Source: a virus. From it: DNA of 21,261 nucleotides. Below the pieces are notes generated by a model that saw only the letters and a list, made by a program, of their open reading frames with translations, ran no database searches and was not told where the DNA came from. The DNA lies in the IMG/VR virus record IMGVR_UViG_3300030090_003838, positions 1-21,261 of that record, one strand, 5' to 3'. The translations under genes were made by a program, and so were the position numbers. Positions 430 to 7,548 of the stretch are shown piece after piece. The first letter of the stretch is position 1. Each line of letters opens with the position of its first letter.

Positions 430-457
430 TTGAAAATGATGAGAGAGGGTATATAGT
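430..457 (+). promoter_or_regulatory. Sigma70-type early promoter
   Basis: TTGAAA at 430-435 (5 of 6 to TTGACA) and TATAGT at 452-457 (5 of 6 to TATAAT) are separated by 16 bp. This predicts a start near 464, about 27 bases upstream of the first early gene. It is the best host-type promoter in the left part of the window and would drive the long rightward run of small genes, in line with early phage transcription by host RNA polymerase. Seen by eye only. Confidence 0.6.
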
Positions 458-490: not shown

Positions 491-817
491 ATGGCACATA
501 AAACAATCAAATACGGAAGAATGGAACTGACACCAGTAAAGGATAGCAATGAATGGGGTCTGTTTATCTGCAAGACTCATTCTGGGGATTTCTTTGTTGA
601 GAGAGTGGATGAGGATCATACTGGATACCATAAGGGAACTTACTGGAATCTTTATAGGTGGGATTGTTTAGCTTTCGGTGATATTGATGATCTCAAGACA
701 ACTTGCGATTTACCCAATAATTACAGGGATAAATGGATGGAGTCATTCGATAGATTGAAAGATACACTTCCATCTATCTCTGATTACCTTATCAATGGCT
801 ATAGCTATGCGGATTGA
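491..817 (+). CDS. Hypothetical early phage protein, 108 aa
   Basis: First gene of the early operon, with a strong ribosome binding site (TAGGAG) 7 bases before the ATG. The product is soluble and rich in aromatic and acidic residues (WNLYRWDCLAFGDIDDL). It has no membrane segment and no motif I recognise. The leader TAGGAGAAAAAACATG is nearly identical in front of many of the following genes, which suggests uniform strong translation. The stop at 815-817 lies directly against the first hammerhead motif. Function unknown; the position suggests a small host-takeover or regulatory protein, which is inference only. Confidence 0.75.
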   Translation: MAHKTIKYGRMELTPVKDSNEWGLFICKTHSGDFFVERVDEDHTGYHKGTYWNLYRWDCLAFGDIDDLKTTCDLPNNYRDKWMESFDRLKDTLPSISDYLINGYSYAD

Positions 818-878
818 ACCAACTGACGAGACTCAGCGAGAATCTGAGCGAAACCCAATTGAAAGATTGGGTCTTGGT
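818..878 (+). ncRNA. Type I hammerhead ribozyme, copy A
   Basis: Stem I is open: ACCAA 818-822 pairs with UUGGU 874-878. The core block CUGACGA is 823-829. Stem II is G830-C849, then a bulged A831, then CUCAG 832-836 with CUGAG 844-848, loop 837-843. GAAA is 850-853. Stem III is CCCAAUU 854-860 with GAUUGGG 865-871, capped by a GAAA tetraloop. A853 pairs with U872, C873 is the cleavage-site nucleotide, and the cut is predicted between 873 and 874. All invariant hammerhead nucleotides are present; the bulge in stem II is the only irregularity. The 3' product would carry the ribosome binding site of the next gene. Confidence 0.85.
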
Positions 879-906
879 AATTAACAAATATGGAGGATTA
901 AATACC

Positions 907-1152
907 ATGAAAAAAATATCAATCTTAACCAAGCAATTTAACAGCCGATATGGAATCAATAACTGGTGTCTGTATAACCAAGAGGATCAGGATAGGACAT
1001 CATTAATAGTGAGAGGAGAATCTGGCTTTTATAATACAACTTGGAGTTTTAGTGATGATTATGTTCAAGAGATACACAAAGAGAATGGTATTTCTGAAGA
1101 TGATGTCACTGAGATTATCTGTTCATCAATGTTCAACTTGGGTAGTGCTTAG
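907..1152 (+). CDS. Hypothetical early phage protein, 81 aa
   Basis: Start chosen at ATG 907, preceded by GGAGG at 892-896. An in-frame TTG at 814 would extend the frame through the hammerhead motif, so that extension is treated as artefact. The product begins MKKISILTKQFNSRYGINNW and continues with CLYNQEDQDRTSLIVRGESG. It is small, soluble and slightly acidic, with no known motif. If ribozyme A is active, this gene's message would start with a 5'-hydroxyl at 874, giving a 33-base leader. Function unknown. Confidence 0.7.
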   Translation: MKKISILTKQFNSRYGINNWCLYNQEDQDRTSLIVRGESGFYNTTWSFSDDYVQEIHKENGISEDDVTEIICSSMFNLGSA

Positions 1153-1182
1153 GCTCTACCCTTTTTTTGTAGGAGAAAAACA

Positions 1183-1428
1183 ATGCAAATAAACGTAAAG
1201 GTAAACGAGAAAGATATTCTTGAGGAGACTTACACGATCACATTAGATCGTGATGAGATAGAGCAAGTAGAACAGGCTCTATTAGACCAAAGAATGAATC
1301 TAATAACTTTCATACAATCTACACATGACCATGATCTGATTGATGAGCATGAAGACCTCAAGCAATTAGAAAAACTAATTGATCGAATACAACTAAGTCA
1401 TCTTTTCATATATGGAGAAAACACATGA
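1183..1428 (+). CDS. Hypothetical acidic early protein, 81 aa
   Basis: ATG at 1183 follows TAGGAGAAAAACA. The protein reads as a short beta-rich start (MQINVKVNEKDILEETYTIT) followed by acidic amphipathic helices (RDEIEQVEQALLDQ, LIDEHEDLKQLEKLIDRI), possibly a small coiled coil. The stop overlaps the next ATG by four bases (ATGA), so the two are translationally coupled. No family recognised. Confidence 0.7.
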   Translation: MQINVKVNEKDILEETYTITLDRDEIEQVEQALLDQRMNLITFIQSTHDHDLIDEHEDLKQLEKLIDRIQLSHLFIYGENT

Positions 1429-1793
1429 AAATAAAGAAATCCAAAACGACAGGGAAAATAAAACTCAAGAGGCTGAATAAACCTCATACCCATATGCAAG
1501 GCATCATCAATGGGTATTACTACAATGCCAGTCTGACCGAATACGGATACGGAGATTTTAGAATCAAAGGCGGTAATTTTGGTTGGGAGGTTTACGATGG
1601 TGATGGGAATAGATTGGATCATCCTTTTGCAGATTTAATAAAAAGAGAGGATGCAAGACAATTTCTGACTGACTACCTTGAGGGTAAAACCATTGAGGTT
1701 GAGTCTGCTAGGTCAGGTAAAACCTATCATGTTCAAAATAACCCAGACAATGAATGGTTGCTTAAAGGAAAGCCAACTGATGAGTCTTTGTGA
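1425..1793 (+). CDS. Hypothetical early protein, 122 aa, with a C-terminus encoded inside a ribozyme
   Basis: ATG at 1425 overlaps the previous stop, and TGGAGAAAACAC supplies the ribosome binding site. The N-terminus is basic (MKIKKSKTTGKIKLKRLNK) and the rest is mixed, with glycine/aromatic stretches (YGYGDFRIKGGNFGWEVYDG). The last seven codons (K-P-T-D-E-S-L and TGA at 1791-1793) lie inside hammerhead copy B, the stop falling in the stem II loop. Translation to the end and ribozyme folding therefore compete for the same RNA. Function unknown. Confidence 0.75.
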   Translation: MKIKKSKTTGKIKLKRLNKPHTHMQGIINGYYYNASLTEYGYGDFRIKGGNFGWEVYDGDGNRLDHPFADLIKREDARQFLTDYLEGKTIEVESARSGKTYHVQNNPDNEWLLKGKPTDESL

Positions 1794-1830
1794 TAAGACG
1801 AAACTGGATAAGAAATTATCCAGTCTTGGT
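1772..1830 (+). ncRNA. Type I hammerhead ribozyme, copy B (fully canonical)
   Basis: Stem I is GCCAA 1772-1776 with UUGGU 1826-1830 (outer pair G-U). CUGAUGA is 1777-1783. Stem II is GUCUU 1784-1788 with AAGAC 1795-1799, loop UGUGAU. GAAA is 1800-1803. Stem III is CUGGAUAA 1804-1811 with UUAUCCAG 1816-1823, capped by GAAA. U1824 and C1825 complete the cleavage site, with the cut predicted between 1825 and 1826. It includes the G10.1-C11.1 pair and matches every conserved position of the family. Its stems II and III differ in sequence from the other copies yet pair perfectly. It overlaps the end of the upstream coding region. Confidence 0.92.
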
Positions 1831-1856
1831 AAATTTTTAAACAGGAGAAAAAACAC

Positions 1857-2333
1857 ATGAGAAAAATTACTAAAGAAGCAAGTGAAGCCTTTAAGGCTGA
1901 AATAAATAACGATAGCGAAAACTATCGACCTTTACCCTACGACCAAGAGAAAGTTGTTTTCTCAAAGGACAACACTCAAGTAGTGATCTATTGGACTGAG
2001 GGAACATGGGAAGGGAGAGATAAACATACACTTTTGAAACTGCATGGGAATACAATCTCTCATCATGTTCAGAATTTGTTTTCTTTCGAGTCATCTATTG
2101 CACAATTCGATATCAATCTTTGTGGGTGGGGTACACCTACGACTAGAGAGAGGCTTAATGGCTTGTTAGAGACTCTAGGATTTGATTTTAGGGTTAAGCA
2201 ACAAAAGGGTGAGCAAATTGCCTATGGAAGGAAATATGGCTCTAGCATCAATCGAAGCTATACGCTCAATGAAGATGGCAACACAAATGTCTTTTTAATT
2301 AACAGGATCATCACAGGGAGGAATATCACATGA
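1857..2333 (+). CDS. Conserved phage-type hypothetical protein, 158 aa
   Basis: ATG at 1857 follows CAGGAGAAAAAACAC, 31 bases after the predicted cut of ribozyme B. The sequence contains LLKLHGNTI and a later NLCGWGTPTTRERLNGLLE block. A similar TTRERLN-type block occurs in uncharacterised phage proteins I have seen; no biochemical role is known to me. No membrane segments or catalytic motif. The stop overlaps the next start (ATGA at 2330-2333). Function unknown. Confidence 0.75.
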   Translation: MRKITKEASEAFKAEINNDSENYRPLPYDQEKVVFSKDNTQVVIYWTEGTWEGRDKHTLLKLHGNTISHHVQNLFSFESSIAQFDINLCGWGTPTTRERLNGLLETLGFDFRVKQQKGEQIAYGRKYGSSINRSYTLNEDGNTNVFLINRIITGRNIT

Positions 2334-2551
2334 AAATAAAAGATAGCACAGCAAAGAAAATCGCTACTGATTTGGTAGAGGAACAAATCATTTGTGGTTG
2401 CAACAATATATCTCAAGAGATTGAGTACATGGTTGGGTGTGATCTCACCGAGAAGCAACAAGAAGCGATTATGGAACAAGTGAATAAGATAGCCAAAAGG
2501 GCATTGATTAAGATCAATTCTGATTGGAAGAACTACAGACTTGTTTATTAA
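2330..2551 (+). CDS. Hypothetical early protein, 73 aa
   Basis: Translationally coupled to the upstream gene through ATGA; GGGAGG at 2316-2321 is the likely ribosome binding site. The product is probably all helical (DSTAKKIATDLVEEQIICGC, DLTEKQQEAIMEQVNKIAKR). It has two cysteines close together (CGC), too few for a zinc site on their own. No family recognised. Confidence 0.7.
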   Translation: MKIKDSTAKKIATDLVEEQIICGCNNISQEIEYMVGCDLTEKQQEAIMEQVNKIAKRALIKINSDWKNYRLVY

Positions 2552-2582
2552 CAACAACTAATTTTTCAACATAGGAGAACAC

Positions 2583-3059
2583 ATGAAAAATTTAACTGAA
2601 GCAGAAAAAAACTGGAAAAATATAAATCAAACTTATCTATATGCTTTTTGCTATACATCAAGGGAAAGAGTCAGATTCTCGATTAGATACTTTTGGGAGA
2701 ATGTCCTTGCAAAGGATATTAGTTGGATTGATAGCCAACACAGAAAGGGTATCGGTTGCGATCTCATGGTCTTTCTGTCTGAAAGTGAAAGGGATGAATA
2801 TGCAAAACAAGCTTATGATGATTATGACTTAGACCAAAGGAAAAGATTGCCACTTTACTTTCAAACGCATTGCATTGATGCAGAGCGTTATGGACTTCCT
2901 AGAGGGTTAGGTGATGACTCATGGGATATAGATGATGCTCGTAGCCCAAGAATAAAGGTCAATGATGTACTCATTGAGTATAAGACTTTAATCGCTGTTC
3001 AAGGCTATTCGAGTTTAGCCAAAGATAAGGACAATCAACATGAGCCAACTGACGATTAG
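2583..3059 (+). CDS. Hypothetical early protein, 158 aa, ending inside a ribozyme
   Basis: ATG at 2583 follows TAGGAGAACAC. The protein has many tyrosine, tryptophan and charged residues (YLYAFCYTSRERVRFSIRYF, QAYDDYDLDQRKRLPLYF) and no recognisable domain. The final residues E-P-T-D-D and the stop TAG (3057-3059) are encoded by the 5' half of hammerhead copy C, like the K-P-T-D end of the 1425 gene. The shared C-terminal P-T-D is thus a by-product of ribozyme sequence rather than a protein motif. Function unknown. Confidence 0.75.
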   Translation: MKNLTEAEKNWKNINQTYLYAFCYTSRERVRFSIRYFWENVLAKDISWIDSQHRKGIGCDLMVFLSESERDEYAKQAYDDYDLDQRKRLPLYFQTHCIDAERYGLPRGLGDDSWDIDDARSPRIKVNDVLIEYKTLIAVQGYSSLAKDKDNQHEPTDD

Positions 3060-3100
3060 CTGAAATGCTATGAAACCCAATCGAAAGGTTGGGTATTGGT
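3044..3100 (+). ncRNA. Type I hammerhead-like ribozyme, copy C
   Basis: Stem I is GCCAA 3044-3048 with UUGGU 3096-3100. CUGACGA is 3049-3055. Stem II is UAGC 3057-3060 with GCUA 3067-3070, loop UGAAAU, closed next to the core by a U3056/U3071 mismatch where a purine-pyrimidine pair is normally found. GAAA is 3072-3075. Stem III is CCCAAUC 3076-3082 with GGUUGGG 3087-3093 and a GAAA tetraloop. U3094 and A3095 form a UA cleavage site, with the cut between 3095 and 3096. The mismatch at 10.1/11.1 may slow or abolish cleavage. Confidence 0.8.
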
Positions 3101-3123
3101 AAATAAACATAGGAGAAAAAATT

Positions 3124-3387
3124 ATGAGAAAACTAACAAAAACACAACAAAATGAGCTTGATAATCTAGCAGTCTCATTGAGTGCAATTAGATTGCTCAA
3201 TGCTTGGTTATTCAATACAAACGTAGAAGGCGATTATGAAAAAGCACTTCAAAAGATTGTTGCGAAAGTCTACACAAGCAACTCAATGACTCACAATGAG
3301 TTCATCAACCTTTGCGACAGAGCGAACCAAATAGTCAGCAAAGGAAGATCGGCTTTCGAAACTGAATTATCAAAATCAATTATATAA
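3124..3387 (+). CDS. Hypothetical early protein, 87 aa
   Basis: ATG at 3124 with AGGAGAAAAAATT in front, 28 bases after the predicted cut of ribozyme C. The product is likely all-helical (KTQQNELDNLAVSLSAIRLL, KALQKIVAKVYTS, EFINLCDRANQIVSKG). It has no membrane segment or family signature I recognise. It is followed after four bases by hammerhead copy D. Function unknown. Confidence 0.7.
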   Translation: MRKLTKTQQNELDNLAVSLSAIRLLNAWLFNTNVEGDYEKALQKIVAKVYTSNSMTHNEFINLCDRANQIVSKGRSAFETELSKSII

Positions 3388-3391
3388 ATGA

Positions 3392-3449
3392 ACCAACTGA
3401 TGATTAGGTGCAATCCCTATGAAAGCCAATCGCAAGATTGGCTATTGGT
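3392..3449 (+). ncRNA. Type I hammerhead-like ribozyme, copy D
   Basis: Stem I is ACCAA 3392-3396 with UUGGU 3445-3449. CUGAUGA is 3397-3403. Stem II is UAGG 3405-3408 with CCUA 3416-3419, 7-base loop, with the same U/U mismatch (3404, 3420) as copy C. GAAA is 3421-3424. Stem III is GCCAAUC 3425-3431 with GAUUGGC 3436-3442 and a GCAA tetraloop. U3443 and A3444 are the cleavage site. Relative to copy C there are compensatory changes in both helices (stem II C-G to G-C, stem III outer C-G to G-C, and a G-U to A-U). This supports selection for the fold. Confidence 0.8.
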
Positions 3450-3482
3450 AAACAATAATTTTATTTATATAGGAGAACGAAA

Positions 3483-3704
3483 ATGAAACTAATAGTGATA
3501 GATGAGAAAAATTATCGCGCACACATACTAAATGATGAAGGCGTTTTAATCTCTTCCGAGATTGATTTTACGGAAGATTACAATCAAGAGAAGGTTGGTG
3601 GTTGGATTATTCATAATGATGTTGGTGATCGAGCTTGGGAAGAACACAATCCTCGATTTATTCCAAATTATGAACGAATTATGAAACTGCTTACAACAAA
3701 ATAA
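3483..3704 (+). CDS. Hypothetical early protein, 73 aa
   Basis: ATG at 3483 after TATAGGAGAACGAAA; its message would begin at 3445 if ribozyme D cuts. The product reads MKLIVIDEKNYRAHILNDEG with a later GGWIIHNDVGDRAWEEHNP. It looks like a compact beta-rich domain and is acidic. No known family. The next gene starts 25 bases downstream behind the same TATATAGGAGAA leader. Confidence 0.7.
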   Translation: MKLIVIDEKNYRAHILNDEGVLISSEIDFTEDYNQEKVGGWIIHNDVGDRAWEEHNPRFIPNYERIMKLLTTK

Positions 3705-3729: not shown

Positions 3730-4065
3730 ATGAAAAACAAAAAAACTGAAAACGAAATAATCCAGTATCGAAAAATGTTTGGTAGAGCATCCTTTTTGGG
3801 AAACACCATAGAGGAAAGCAATACTGTAAGACGTTATCTGCTCAAAGCAGTAGGAGTATTACACGATATTGGATATGAAGACAGAACGATTGAAGATGAT
3901 CGTTTAATTAAGGTGCTTGAAGAAATACTTTTTCCTAAAAGTAGGCAAAATCCAAATCCTTATGATGGAACGAGAGATAATGATCGTATAGGGATTGATG
4001 TTTCTATAGGGGAGAGTTTAAAACTAAATCAAGTCATTGAATACATAGAGGAGATAAAACAATGA
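3730..4065 (+). CDS. Hypothetical protein, 111 aa, upstream of the AAA+ ATPase
   Basis: ATG at 3730 behind TATAGGAGAAAACACA. The sequence is mostly helical and charged (TENEIIQYRKMFGRASFLGN, RRYLLKAVGVLHDIGYEDR), with an acidic C-terminal helix. Its stop overlaps the start of the AAA+ ATPase gene (ATGA at 4062-4065), so it may be co-translated with that module. No family recognised and no link to ATPase function visible beyond position. Confidence 0.7.
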   Translation: MKNKKTENEIIQYRKMFGRASFLGNTIEESNTVRRYLLKAVGVLHDIGYEDRTIEDDRLIKVLEEILFPKSRQNPNPYDGTRDNDRIGIDVSIGESLKLNQVIEYIEEIKQ

Positions 4066-5150
4066 AACCAAAACAAGCAAAAGAAACAATGATCCATGTA
4101 CTGAGAGGAGGGAATACACCTCTCCTCATTGGAGGTACTGGTATCGGTAAGTCAGCAGTAGCTAAGCAAACAACATATGAATTAGCAGATGGGAGGACTG
4201 TAAGAGTGGATAAGATCGATCCAAATAAAAATGAGTTTGGGTTTATCGATTTCCGATTAAGTCTTTATGAATCTATTGATCTGGGAGGGCTATGCTACAT
4301 TGAGGAAGGGAAGCAACTTAGAGCCTTTCTAGGCAACTTGCCTATCAAGGGTGAGGGCATCCTATTCCTAGATGAATATGGACAGGCTCATCCCAATTTA
4401 CAGAGCGTATGTGGACAACTGATTTATGAAAGGAGAATCGGTGAATATACAATGCCTGATGGGTGGCAAATAATTTGTGCCTCAAACAGGGCTAGTGATA
4501 GAGCTGGATCGGTAAAACTTCCTTCCCATGTTATCGGAAGATGCTCAATTATTGAGTTTGAGTCAGATTACAATGACTGGTTAGATTGGGCTATGGATAA
4601 TGATGTTCATCCTCACGTTATGAGTTATCTAAACTTTAGACAGGGAGAAGATTTAAATAAGTTTGATCCCAAAGTAATTTCACCTCAGCCCTCACCTAGA
4701 TCATGGGTAAGGCTATCGGACACCTTAAAGACTAATCCTCCTTTGGAGATCGTTCAAAGGTTGGCTGAATGTGATGTCGGTGAGATTTCTGCAATAGATT
4801 TTAGGAACTTCATACAAACATTTAAAAACTTGCCAAACATAGAGGCAATATTAAATGGGAGTGATGTCGATAATCCATATAGCGACATGGAAAGTATTAA
4901 GGACAAAAAAGAGAAACAAGGTGCAATGGGTATTTCTTATGCGATCACTATTGCGTTGGTCGAAGGTATCCGTAATGCAGATAATCTGATGTACGAATAC
5001 TTTGAGAATGGTCTTGCCTATGTCTCTAAATTTCCGACACCTGAGTACAAAATTTTCTTTGTAAGAATGGCAACAAGAAAAAGACCTGAACTCATGGAAA
5101 CCAAAACTTATTCTAAATTCAAAATCGATAATCAAGATGTTGAGTTTTGA
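4062..5150 (+). CDS. MoxR-like AAA+ ATPase, 362 aa
   Basis: Walker A is GGTGIGKSAV at about residues 24-33. Walker B is GILFLDEYGQ at about 98-107, followed by a sensor-1-like segment IICASNRASD (about 136-145) and an arginine-containing HVIGRCSIIEF block. This matches the MoxR/dynein-related AAA+ group, whose members usually act with a VWA-domain partner as chaperones or remodelling machines on other proteins. The gene directly precedes a DUF3150-like gene and a metallopeptidase/VWA gene, the usual company of phage MoxR proteins. The phage substrate is unknown. The C-terminal third is a divergent helical region. Confidence 0.85.
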   Translation: MKPKQAKETMIHVLRGGNTPLLIGGTGIGKSAVAKQTTYELADGRTVRVDKIDPNKNEFGFIDFRLSLYESIDLGGLCYIEEGKQLRAFLGNLPIKGEGILFLDEYGQAHPNLQSVCGQLIYERRIGEYTMPDGWQIICASNRASDRAGSVKLPSHVIGRCSIIEFESDYNDWLDWAMDNDVHPHVMSYLNFRQGEDLNKFDPKVISPQPSPRSWVRLSDTLKTNPPLEIVQRLAECDVGEISAIDFRNFIQTFKNLPNIEAILNGSDVDNPYSDMESIKDKKEKQGAMGISYAITIALVEGIRNADNLMYEYFENGLAYVSKFPTPEYKIFFVRMATRKRPELMETKTYSKFKIDNQDVEF

Positions 5151-5201: not shown

Positions 5202-6185
5202 ATGAAAAATAAAGAAAAAAATATGCTCTCACAGACTGCAACGAAAGTGAGATTCAATTCTAAAATTTGGAGTGGGATCAAAACTGATAGGAGTCTTAGA
5301 AAGAAGTTAGCAGATGATGTGAATATCAATAATGATAAGCATCTTCTTGTTTCTAAACACTTGGTTGGATTTAATTCCAGTAAATACTTTAGAAGAATAA
5401 CAGGCAAAGTTAGATCAGAAAGTTATTATCCATTAACTTGTGCATGGGATGATAGTAGCGCAGATGCCACAGGAAAAATGCAATCAGGTTGGAGGTTATG
5501 TGCTAACTCTTTGTTAGACCAATTACAGGAATCTATGGAGAAGGCTCGAACTGAGTTTTTTAAAGAGGTCGATGGATTTTGTAAAGATTATCCAAGATAT
5601 GTTGAAGAAGCTAGGCACAATCTAGGAGATGCTTTTGACGAAAATGATTATCCTAAAATTGAGGAGATCAGAGAACGATTTAGGTTTTCTTTTGAATTAG
5701 AGGAATTACCTAGTTTTAGTAATTCATCCGATATTCGATTAAACGTATCTGAATCTATGAGACAAAGGATCGTAGCTGATACTGAGAATCGTATGAGAAA
5801 CAATGTTTCAAACATCTTTAAAACGACTGTTGATGCTCTATTGGAACAGGTGGATCACATATCCGAAAAAGTTGAATCTTATGATCCCAACAACAAGCAG
5901 AAGGGAGGGTTCTTTAAGAACTCTAGTTTCGATAAGTTGAGAAAAGCTGTAGAGGTTATGCCATCAATCAATAAAGACATATTGGGTGATGATAAGCAGA
6001 TCAAAAACGCTCATCAAAACTTGCTTAGGGTTTTAGCCAGTATCGACTCAATCGATGATCTAAGAGGAGATACCAAAGATAGTGATGCAAAAAGAAAGAA
6101 GGTTGCTAGTGATCTGAAGAAGGCGGTTGATCCTTTGAAAAATGATTTCTTGGGTAAATTATATGGAGGGAATAACAATGACTAA
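5202..6185 (+). CDS. DUF3150-like helical phage protein, 327 aa
   Basis: ATG at 5202 after GAGGAGGAAACACA. The early part shows W-S-G segments (NSKIWSGIKTDRSLRKKLAD), then HLLVSKHLVGFNSSKYFRRI, then a long charged helical region (EKARTEFFKEVDGFCKDYP, FRFSFELEELPSF). This layout resembles phage DUF3150 proteins that sit between a MoxR-like ATPase and a VWA protein; I assign it by pattern and context, not by search. A predicted role is scaffold or adaptor of the complex. The C-terminal four codons overlap the start of the next gene. Confidence 0.55.
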   Translation: MKNKEKNMLSQTATKVRFNSKIWSGIKTDRSLRKKLADDVNINNDKHLLVSKHLVGFNSSKYFRRITGKVRSESYYPLTCAWDDSSADATGKMQSGWRLCANSLLDQLQESMEKARTEFFKEVDGFCKDYPRYVEEARHNLGDAFDENDYPKIEEIRERFRFSFELEELPSFSNSSDIRLNVSESMRQRIVADTENRMRNNVSNIFKTTVDALLEQVDHISEKVESYDPNNKQKGGFFKNSSFDKLRKAVEVMPSINKDILGDDKQIKNAHQNLLRVLASIDSIDDLRGDTKDSDAKRKKVASDLKKAVDPLKNDFLGKLYGGNNND

Positions 6186-7548
6186 TCCTATTGATAAAAT
6201 TGTTATGGCTCGATCTCGACTCATGCGAAAAGATGTTGGGTTTGCCTCCATGCTTTTGAACTTGGAACTCGTTGAGGATGGTGAGAGGTTTGACTCAATG
6301 GCTACTGATGGACAGAGAATCTTTTGGAATCCCAAATTCATTGAAGAATGTACGAAGGAGGAATTGGAAGGTGTGCTGATCCATGAGGCTTGTCATGTCG
6401 TATATGAGCATCCCTTGAGGAGAGGCAAGAGGAATCCTAAACTTTGGAATATAGCAACTGACTACATAATAAATGCATATCTCAAATATGATTTAGGGTA
6501 TGAACTTCCTGAGGGTGGATTGATTGATTTCGATTATAGGAATATGTCAGCAGAGGCAGTCTATAAGATTCTTGATAATGACGATGATGCACTTGAGAAA
6601 GCAAAGCAACAAGCAAAGCAACAAGCAAAGGATCAAAATGAATCAGAGGATCAAAATTCCGAAGGCGGAAATTCAGAAAATTCTGAGGCGCAAGAAGGAA
6701 ATAAAAATACTGGTCAATCTTCTTTGGACTCTCAAGCAAAAGGTGAGGGGGGGGATAAGTATGCAGATATCCCATCCCTTGTTGGAGAGGTCATTGATCC
6801 TGAGGATGATAGTGGGAAGAAATTAAATGAATCAGAAATAAAAGAGTTGCAAGATACTATTCGTGCCAATCTATTTAATGCTGATAAATTTGCTTCACTT
6901 CATGGCACTTCTTCTGTATCAGGCAGAGTTCATGAGATCGAGGGTGGATCAGTTGATTGGAGAGAGGTTATGTCTAGCCTTCTTCAGTCAACTATAAAGA
7001 ATGATTACACCTACAATAGACCGAACAGGAGGCACTCTTGGAGAGGTTTGCATCTCCCCTCTAAGGTTCATTCTGTAGATGGTGGTGAAATTGCCATAAT
7101 CTTTGATACGAGTGGATCATTCTCTCAGCAAGAGATTAATATGTCAGCAAAAGAGGTTGAGAATATGTGCATCGACCTAAACATTGAGAGGATTAGAATA
7201 TGCTACTGCGATAGTGTCGTTAGAAAGAATGATAAGGGTGAATGGTGGGATCACTATGATCTATCTCAAGGTGAAGAACTAGACCTCAATATCAGAGGCG
7301 GTGGGGCAACTAAACTTGATCCTCCTTTTAATCTTATAAATGATTTTACTGAAGACATGGACTCTGTATCTGCTGTTATTTATTTTACAGATGGTTATGG
7401 ACAGATAGTAAACAAAGAAGGAGATGTCGTCAGCAAAGAGGTTGAACCGAATATCCCTGTGATATGGGCTATAACGACACCGATAAAGACGAATCCACAA
7501 ATTACTTTCGGTGAGATCATTCACATAAACATAAACGATTTTCATTAA
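6178..7548 (+). CDS. Metallopeptidase-like plus VWA-like domain protein (DUF2201 type), 456 aa
   Basis: Start set at ATG 6178, behind GGAGGG and overlapping the previous stop; an upstream in-frame ATG at 6142 lacks a ribosome binding site. The N-terminal domain has a zinc-peptidase signature HEACHVVYEH at about residues 70-79. A low-complexity Gln/Lys/Asp/Asn linker follows (about 140-215). The C-terminal half is a VWA fold: the MIDAS motif DTSGS at about 310, a GGGATKLDPPF loop that can supply the MIDAS threonine, and YFTDGYG, whose aspartate completes the site. This is the canonical partner of the MoxR-like ATPase at 4062. An eight-G run at 6747-6754 lies in the linker. Confidence 0.85.
   Translation: MTNPIDKIVMARSRLMRKDVGFASMLLNLELVEDGERFDSMATDGQRIFWNPKFIEECTKEELEGVLIHEACHVVYEHPLRRGKRNPKLWNIATDYIINAYLKYDLGYELPEGGLIDFDYRNMSAEAVYKILDNDDDALEKAKQQAKQQAKDQNESEDQNSEGGNSENSEAQEGNKNTGQSSLDSQAKGEGGDKYADIPSLVGEVIDPEDDSGKKLNESEIKELQDTIRANLFNADKFASLHGTSSVSGRVHEIEGGSVDWREVMSSLLQSTIKNDYTYNRPNRRHSWRGLHLPSKVHSVDGGEIAIIFDTSGSFSQQEINMSAKEVENMCIDLNIERIRICYCDSVVRKNDKGEWWDHYDLSQGEELDLNIRGGGATKLDPPFNLINDFTEDMDSVSAVIYFTDGYGQIVNKEGDVVSKEVEPNIPVIWAITTPIKTNPQITFGEIIHININDFH
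6601..6630 (+). repeat. 12-bp tandem repeat in the linker of the VWA protein gene
   Basis: GCAAAGCAACAA occurs at 6601-6612 and 6613-6624 with a third half-copy to 6630. It encodes the Ala-Lys-Gln-Gln repeat of the interdomain linker. Such repeats change copy number easily by slippage, which here would only alter linker length. Confidence 0.7.

Follow-up and report, generated by a model that had tools for sequence, protein, structure and literature searches.

Why would a phage place several copies of a hammerhead motif between the consecutive genes of one operon? The question is raised by a stretch of viral DNA, hereafter called the window, that spans bases 1-21,261 of an IMG/VR virus record 26,593 bases long. 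A first-pass annotation had noted four hammerhead motifs on its plus strand and proposed that they cut the early polycistronic mRNA. We found all four where they had been placed, with exactly the same predicted cut bonds: Hammerhead A at 815-882 (core 819-877), B at 1769-1834 (core 1773-1829), C at 3041-3104 (core 3045-3099), and D at 3389-3453 (core 3393-3448), the bonds lying after C873, C1825, A3095, and A3444, respectively. The answer that we reach, and consider likely, is a lineage-wide segmentation of polycistronic mRNA by ribozymes at gene borders, with both catalysis and function predicted from sequence comparison.

All four copies match a structural descriptor and carry, in order, CCAA, CUGANGA, a closed stem II, GAA, a closed stem III starting with an A-U pair, H17, and UUGG. 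In Hammerhead A these blocks are CCAA at 819-822, CUGACGA at 823-829, stem II at 830-849 with a bulged A beside its first pair, GAA at 850-852, stem III with its GAAA loop at 853-872, and UUGG at 874-877, the predicted cut falling between C873 and U874. The catalytic core (CUGANGA ... GAA, A15.1-U16.1, and H17) is present in four of four copies, and stem I is open (CCAA/UUGG) with stems II and III closed by loops, the type I permutation. Other details of the first-pass annotation also stand, namely the GNRA loops of stem III (GAAA in A, B, and C and GCAA in D), the UC or UA cleavage site (C17 in A and B, A17 in C and D), and the compensatory pair changes between C and D, which are seen in stems II and III. 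Its standard picture has to be amended in two respects, as positions 10.1/11.1 form a G-C pair in A and B and a U.U mismatch in C and D, and B and C overlap the 3' ends of the genes upstream of them. Loop II (Y-G-n-n-A) and a UAA after stem I, where a tertiary contact between loop II and stem I may form, are conserved in the type I alignment, and a near-identical copy of Hammerhead A is found in locus L008 at 424-491. Because of their core and topology, and the covariation and sense-only placement described below, we call A to D type I hammerheads; they are structurally complete ribozymes of this type, with predicted catalytic activity.

The descriptor, which demands the core and all three stems, had four matches in the window, exactly A to D, and none on either strand of 150 Markov-shuffled windows of 21,261 bases (3.2 Mb), which served as the control for chance. 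A type I covariance model (R1), built from 27 distinct relatives, scored A at 60.8 bits, B at 79.2, C at 74.4, and D at 74.6-74.7, scores that are partly by construction because the window's four copies are among the 27 building sequences; the next best match in the window reached 11.3 bits. Further CTGANGA...GAAA matches at window positions 6114, 6800, 14199, and 19476 were rejected, having neither descriptor nor R1 support.

The first-pass annotation had also proposed scoring the segments with Rfam, counting the lack of an above-threshold match as a refutation, and at the gathering threshold Rfam indeed has no hammerhead match in the window. In E-value mode only B scores, with 30.3 bits for Hammerhead_3 against a cut-off of 48.5. 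B also has a weak match to RAGATH-1-hammerhead (RF03152; 28.3 bits, cut-off 56.3), whose extra 5' elements are absent here. At E<=0.05, however, Rfam reported no hammerhead in phage PaP3 either, although the PaP3 hammerhead is listed among active variants (PMC3088659), and at the gathering threshold it reported none in 124 kb of relatives carrying dozens of intact copies. Since PaP3 and these copy-rich relatives are missed too, we take the result as a limit of Rfam and not as a refutation; a gathering score belongs to the database and says nothing about what a ribozyme is. The copies share the core, the three stems, and a type I or III permutation with Hammerhead_1 (RF00163) and Hammerhead_3 (RF00008) but score below gathering or go undetected.

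Relatives were sought in several databases. Scanning IMG/VR for the type I pattern yielded 40 contigs, of which ∼34 carry true type I hammerheads; matches in L020, L026, L027, L031, L034, and L037 were rejected because they have no stems and look like coding sequence. Bacterial and archaeal (GTDB) genomes totalling 257 billion bases held 43 matches to this pattern, none of which reached 30 bits with R1; these were treated as chance, and none gave a host or prophage link. No window protein matched in GTDB genomes. Among INPHARED phages, Megablast and distant BLAST searches found no close relative (a 23-base Gordonia match was dismissed as chance), and matches of the primase-helicase, the VWA protein, and the ATPase were all below 60% identity, so that no isolate or host could be assigned. 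In viral contigs, a search with the single ATPase protein confirmed no relatives, whereas an ATPase alignment query found them. The junction sample was obtained in this way, by searching IMG/VR with an alignment of the AAA ATPase (phrog_1297; window 4062-5150, plus strand), the lineage marker, and keeping the best 80 loci; the loci were ranked by ATPase only, but as the alignment came from loci first recognised by their hammerheads, the sample has that lineage at its centre. The window ATPase is 54-59% identical to those of the relatives compared.

In the best 80 loci and the window, R1 found 139 type I hammerheads (135 without the window's four). The loci lacking type I were also examined, which led to the discovery of a type III family, and a covariance model of these (R2) found 154 copies in the same set. 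All 293 matches of the two models are in sense orientation, and 97 type I and 90 type III copies remain distinct after removal of duplicates. Weak matches that overlap a type III copy, such as the type I match at L084 9534 (25.9 bits), were not counted as evidence. Relatives hold up to eight ribozymes per locus, and in three large records that were inspected (G007, G022, and G023, 46-58 kb) the matches are confined to ∼5 kb. Ribozymes are also found with more distant ATPase relatives (L191-L201), and none with L202-L210, at 24-26% identity; their presence thus goes with a lineage rather than with the ATPase gene as such.

The stems of both families covary strongly. Among the 27 distinct type I relatives, 96% of pair cells are standard, with 100 double-change cells against 32 in shuffled data, and pairing falls to 38-39% when the partner is shifted by one column; the covariation is seen in stems II and III and in one stem I pair. 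For type III, which has the core, an open stem III, and closed stems I and II, the descriptor gave 74 distinct matches and none in 2.1 Mb of shuffled sequence, and 94% of pair cells are standard, with 100 double-change cells against 27 shuffled. Variation is lowest in the alignment columns of the core and unrestrained in the stems, which is hard to reconcile with the elements being non-catalytic look-alikes that serve as terminators, RNase sites, or translational couplers. Core deviations in several relatives would suit such look-alikes, but no U-run is present 3' of the elements and two circular permutations of the same catalytic core occur at the same place, and we give this explanation next to no credence.

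Segmentation is also supported by where the ribozymes lie. Upstream of the ATPase gene, 71 of the 81 loci (window counted) have a ribozyme, which is type I in 64 and type III in 7, and at the border between the ATPase and the DUF3150-like gene (window 5202-6185, plus strand) 63 of 74 have one (54 type III and 9 type I). None is present at the following border in any of 68 loci, since the DUF3150-like gene and the VWA/metallopeptidase (DUF2201) gene (window 6181-7548, plus strand) overlap and leave no room, and 49 of 51 loci have one 3' of the VWA gene. Counted per ATPase cluster at 90% identity, the same four places give 16/21, 16/20, 0/20, and 15/17. The upstream accessory genes often have one ribozyme each, as in L134, where five consecutive genes are each preceded by one and the total is eight. 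The type can also change at a single border, as seen among phages with ATPases 91-93% identical, in which L088 has type III and L082, L083, and L095 have type I. At the ATPase-DUF3150 border, each of the nine type I calls depended on a distant 3' strand ∼130-230 nucleotides (nt) away, which was found by eye in five and could not be found in L077. In L072:3318, L073:3057, L076:1992, L080:3108, and L081:3334, a stem III insert of ∼130-230 nt is closed by the distant strand and followed by a hairpin.

Because two topologies share these junctions in 21 ATPase clusters, always in sense orientation and never between the overlapping genes, the comparison strongly supports the proposal that polycistronic mRNA is cut into pieces, cleavage itself being a prediction. 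A different reading of the layout would be that the hammerheads are mainly cassette borders, i.e., repeated DNA for recombination of accessory genes, with catalysis incidental or a relic of a mobile element. Accessory genes are indeed shuffled as cassettes around hammerheads among the window (491-1793), L008 (100-1706), and L001 (4812-5968). Selection for DNA identity would not be expected to change stem sequences and keep their pairing, however, and a ribozyme persists at orthologous junctions through changes of topology, with all copies in sense; we therefore regard cassette borders as a very improbable main role.

The copies fall into core classes. In type I, a U.U at 10.1/11.1 goes with A17 (18 of 18) and a G-C with C17 (Fisher p 8e-13), and in type III a U.U goes with A17 in 37 of 39 and a G-C again with C17 (p 2e-7), both p values being inflated by shared ancestry; these counts leave out five G-C copies with an apparent G17, which are probably misparsed long-insert copies. 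U.U/A17 and G-C/C17 are possibly two rate classes (copies across L072-L146). A U.U at this position occurs in natural hammerheads, and earlier work found more cleavage with it than with other mismatches (PMC3088659, Perreault et al. 2011).

Structural variants were also observed. In a type III variant, two additional hairpins separate CUGANGA from stem II and make a five-way junction (L134:6739-6831, with a fold z of -4.3, L140:6600-6692, L144:9678-9770, L085:6184-6270, L107:7110-7196, L124:5860-5948, and L128:3275-3363). Some type I copies share a recurring two-hairpin domain in stem III, UUAAA..AGGUAGCAGUnAUGCYCUnACCCUUUCGAGGG (L015:1899-1990, L015:2559-2651, L140:2740-2832, L141:2285-2374, L138:1924-2015, and L085:4939-5030), and a second type of stem III insert, UUAAAUAGGGAUAUCCCUAGCCUGUAA, is found in L109, L124, L127, and L015:1523. 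A stem III insert may possibly be a sensor or docking domain. Elements that resemble a hammerhead but have an AA insertion ahead of the GAAA following stem II (GGGUGCAAGAAACUG) lie ∼90 nt upstream of the ATPase gene in L087 and ∼577 nt upstream in L127; the models do not score them.

What would the cuts produce? Each cut site of the window lies 28-38 nt upstream of an AUG preceded by a Shine-Dalgarno (SD) sequence, as expected from the earlier claim that every hammerhead stands ahead of a ribosome-binding site. The distance is 33 nt for the gene downstream of A (81 amino acids [aa], 907-1152), 31 nt for the phrog_554-like gene downstream of B (158 aa, 1857-2333), 28 nt for the gene downstream of C (87 aa, 3124-3387), and 38 nt for the gene downstream of D (73 aa, 3483-3704), all on the plus strand with start codons at 907, 1857, 3124, and 3483. 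The processed mRNA of the first would begin at 874. In the relatives and the window, an SD-preceded open reading frame follows 93 of 100 distinct type I and 112 of 114 distinct type III copies, and the SD lies 24-132 nt into the predicted downstream product.

The two types would differ in where the ribozyme ends up, as type I remains on the upstream RNA and type III on the downstream RNA, which then has the stem I hairpin at its start. Ahead of core genes, type I copies often have an extra hairpin directly after UNGGU. With a strict criterion of at least 6 base pairs within 6 nt of the predicted new 5' end, such a hairpin was found in 31 of 48 leaders not starting with UNGGUAA, in 0 of 29 starting with it, and in 5% of shuffled leaders; a looser criterion was dropped since ∼50-70% of shuffles passed. 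The shared product is thus predicted to be a downstream message with a 5'-hydroxyl (5'-OH) and often a 5'-terminal hairpin, although the added hairpin after UNGGU may instead serve folding of the ribozyme. Leaders of L015, L009, and L040 (e.g., before the AUG that follows the L015:2255 hammerhead) contain a recurrent GACCUUGGAGGGUC element that places the SD in the loop of a small hairpin.

In many copies the stop codon of the upstream gene is placed close to the ribozyme or within it. In ∼15 of 38 distinct copies the stop codon starts 8 nt before the core, one nucleotide before CCAA, and further copies have it within stem II or the core itself; in the window, B overlaps the 3' end of gene 1425-1793 (stop codon 1791-1793) and C that of gene 2583-3059 (stop codon 3057-3059). 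From this layout, a translating ribosome would block folding of the ribozyme until it departs. Translation and folding being mutually exclusive could mean that cleavage mainly switches messages off, with self-cutting destroying or uncoupling the polycistronic RNA after a burst of expression and ribosome traffic delaying the cut; the 5' fragments would also be left without a terminator. Yet what is constant is the downstream message, which retains an intact SD, often has an added 5' hairpin, and looks built to be kept, and type III leaves the upstream 3' end bare, so that the benefit shared by both types is at the downstream 5' end. A switch-off function therefore seems unlikely to us. The excised gene-length RNAs might alternatively be ligated or circularised into circular mRNAs, given that consecutive ribozymes bracket single genes in the L134 and L119 maps and that 5'-OH and 2',3'-cyclic phosphate ends suit RtcB-type ligation. 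However, neither RtcB (PF01139) nor RNA_ligase (PF09414) was found in 13 partial phage records including G000, in which control families matched, and Perreault et al. sought circular or spliced products and did not find them (PMC3088659); this fate has very little probability in our view.

Segmentation at gene borders could proceed as follows. Each ribozyme would fold during synthesis of the transcript, once the upstream gene has been translated, just after (A and D) or across (B and C) the upstream stop codon, and would cut after H17. The upstream message would then end in the ribozyme with a 2',3'-cyclic phosphate, and the downstream message would start with 5'-OH-UUGG 28-38 nt before its AUG. 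A defined 5' end near the ribosome-binding site, made without host RNases, would uncouple the decay and translation of each gene from those of its neighbours. In the relatives, the downstream product would often start with a hairpin, either type III stem I or the extra hairpin after UNGGU. Both 5'-OH ends and 5'-terminal stem-loops are known to retard RNase E, which would stabilise the mRNA: in Escherichia coli, RNA is stabilised by a 5' stem-loop that leaves no more than 2-4 nt unpaired (PMC2948425), a 5' monophosphate stimulates RNase E (PMC2948425, PMC7509114), and with a monomeric 5'-hydroxylated oligonucleotide RNase E cleavage was ∼40-fold slower than in the rapid multimer phase (PMC2948425).

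Several observations weigh against this account. The minimum free energy fold is the hammerhead structure for isolated B and C but not for isolated A and D; A has the hammerhead as its centroid, and the fold of D pairs its AU-rich flanks instead. C and D carry the weaker U.U/A17 core, and in the relatives the strict core pattern is found in 85 of 97 distinct type I and 68 of 90 distinct type III copies, the others having core changes. The window phage has no more than its four copies; each precedes an accessory gene, the core junctions occupied in its relatives are empty, and no hammerhead lies within 600 nt upstream of its ATPase gene. Given this distribution, the window represents a reduced version of the arrangement or a different one. 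The four window leaders have no strong 5' hairpin. The RNase E data come from E. coli, and the host of this phage may decay mRNA differently.

The early timing ascribed to the operon is suggested by gene content. A candidate sigma70-like promoter of the operon, TTGAAA-16-TATAGT at 430-457 (plus strand), was the best match of a consensus scan (10/12) but is weak evidence because the region has fewer matches than shuffles. Homologues of gene 907-1152 occur in L008, L001, and L024 at ∼99% identity, and those of gene 1857-2333 are found near hammerheads in many loci. A terminator-like hairpin followed by seven T residues (GGGTAG...CTACCC TTTTTTT) lies at 1140-1168, between genes 907-1152 and 1183-1428, and causes weak SorY and sbrA matches in Rfam; the L008 homologue of gene 907-1152 has a hammerhead 3' of the gene in its place.

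In phage T7, RNase III cuts the early polycistronic mRNA between genes into stable messages. The arrangement described here would likewise cut early phage mRNA between genes, but a host protein acts at double-stranded sites in T7 whereas the cutting agent here would be the RNA itself. A closer precedent is found in the prophage clusters of Perreault et al. (2011), where several closely spaced hammerheads, with types I, II, and III represented, border individual genes or short blocks in phage DNA, processing into operon- or gene-length mRNAs was proposed, and three tandem sets cleaved in vitro and one in E. coli (PMC3088659). To speak of a new system, as the first-pass annotation did, is therefore too strong. 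In the window and its relatives, several sense-oriented ribozymes likewise flank consecutive phage genes. The flanked genes were not constant in those clusters, whereas here the same core-operon junctions are used in most of the 21 ATPase clusters; the copies here are on viral contigs with no structurally sound GTDB match, types I and III exchange, and many products would carry 5' hairpins. What is new is that placement is conserved across the lineage, that types are exchanged at one junction, that hairpins follow the cut site, and that Rfam thresholds miss the copies; the density of the ribozymes is unusual as well. A search of the literature, covering open-licence papers only, found nothing on this lineage, and the role of prokaryotic hammerheads was called an open question both in that work (PMC3088659) and in 2017 (PMC6155905).

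It is conceivable, though we would put it forward only tentatively, that the ribozymes are the regular operon-processing machinery of this lineage, in which most translationally uncoupled borders of the early operon are served, topologies are freely exchanged, and cutting rates are tuned per border through G-C/C17 or U.U/A17 cores and conserved stem III or core inserts, possibly sensors, so that the set would program the timing and ratio of early proteins.

The lineage offers a natural experiment, in that the same borders keep a ribozyme over large protein divergence while one type replaces another, which separates the need for a cut at a given place from mere inheritance of sequence, and the exact bonds can be named. 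Since such ribozymes fall below Rfam thresholds, similar systems have probably been overlooked in viral metagenomes, and models R1 and R2 show how hammerheads of this kind can be found. These phages would probably chop their long mRNAs into single-gene pieces with no need for a protein enzyme.

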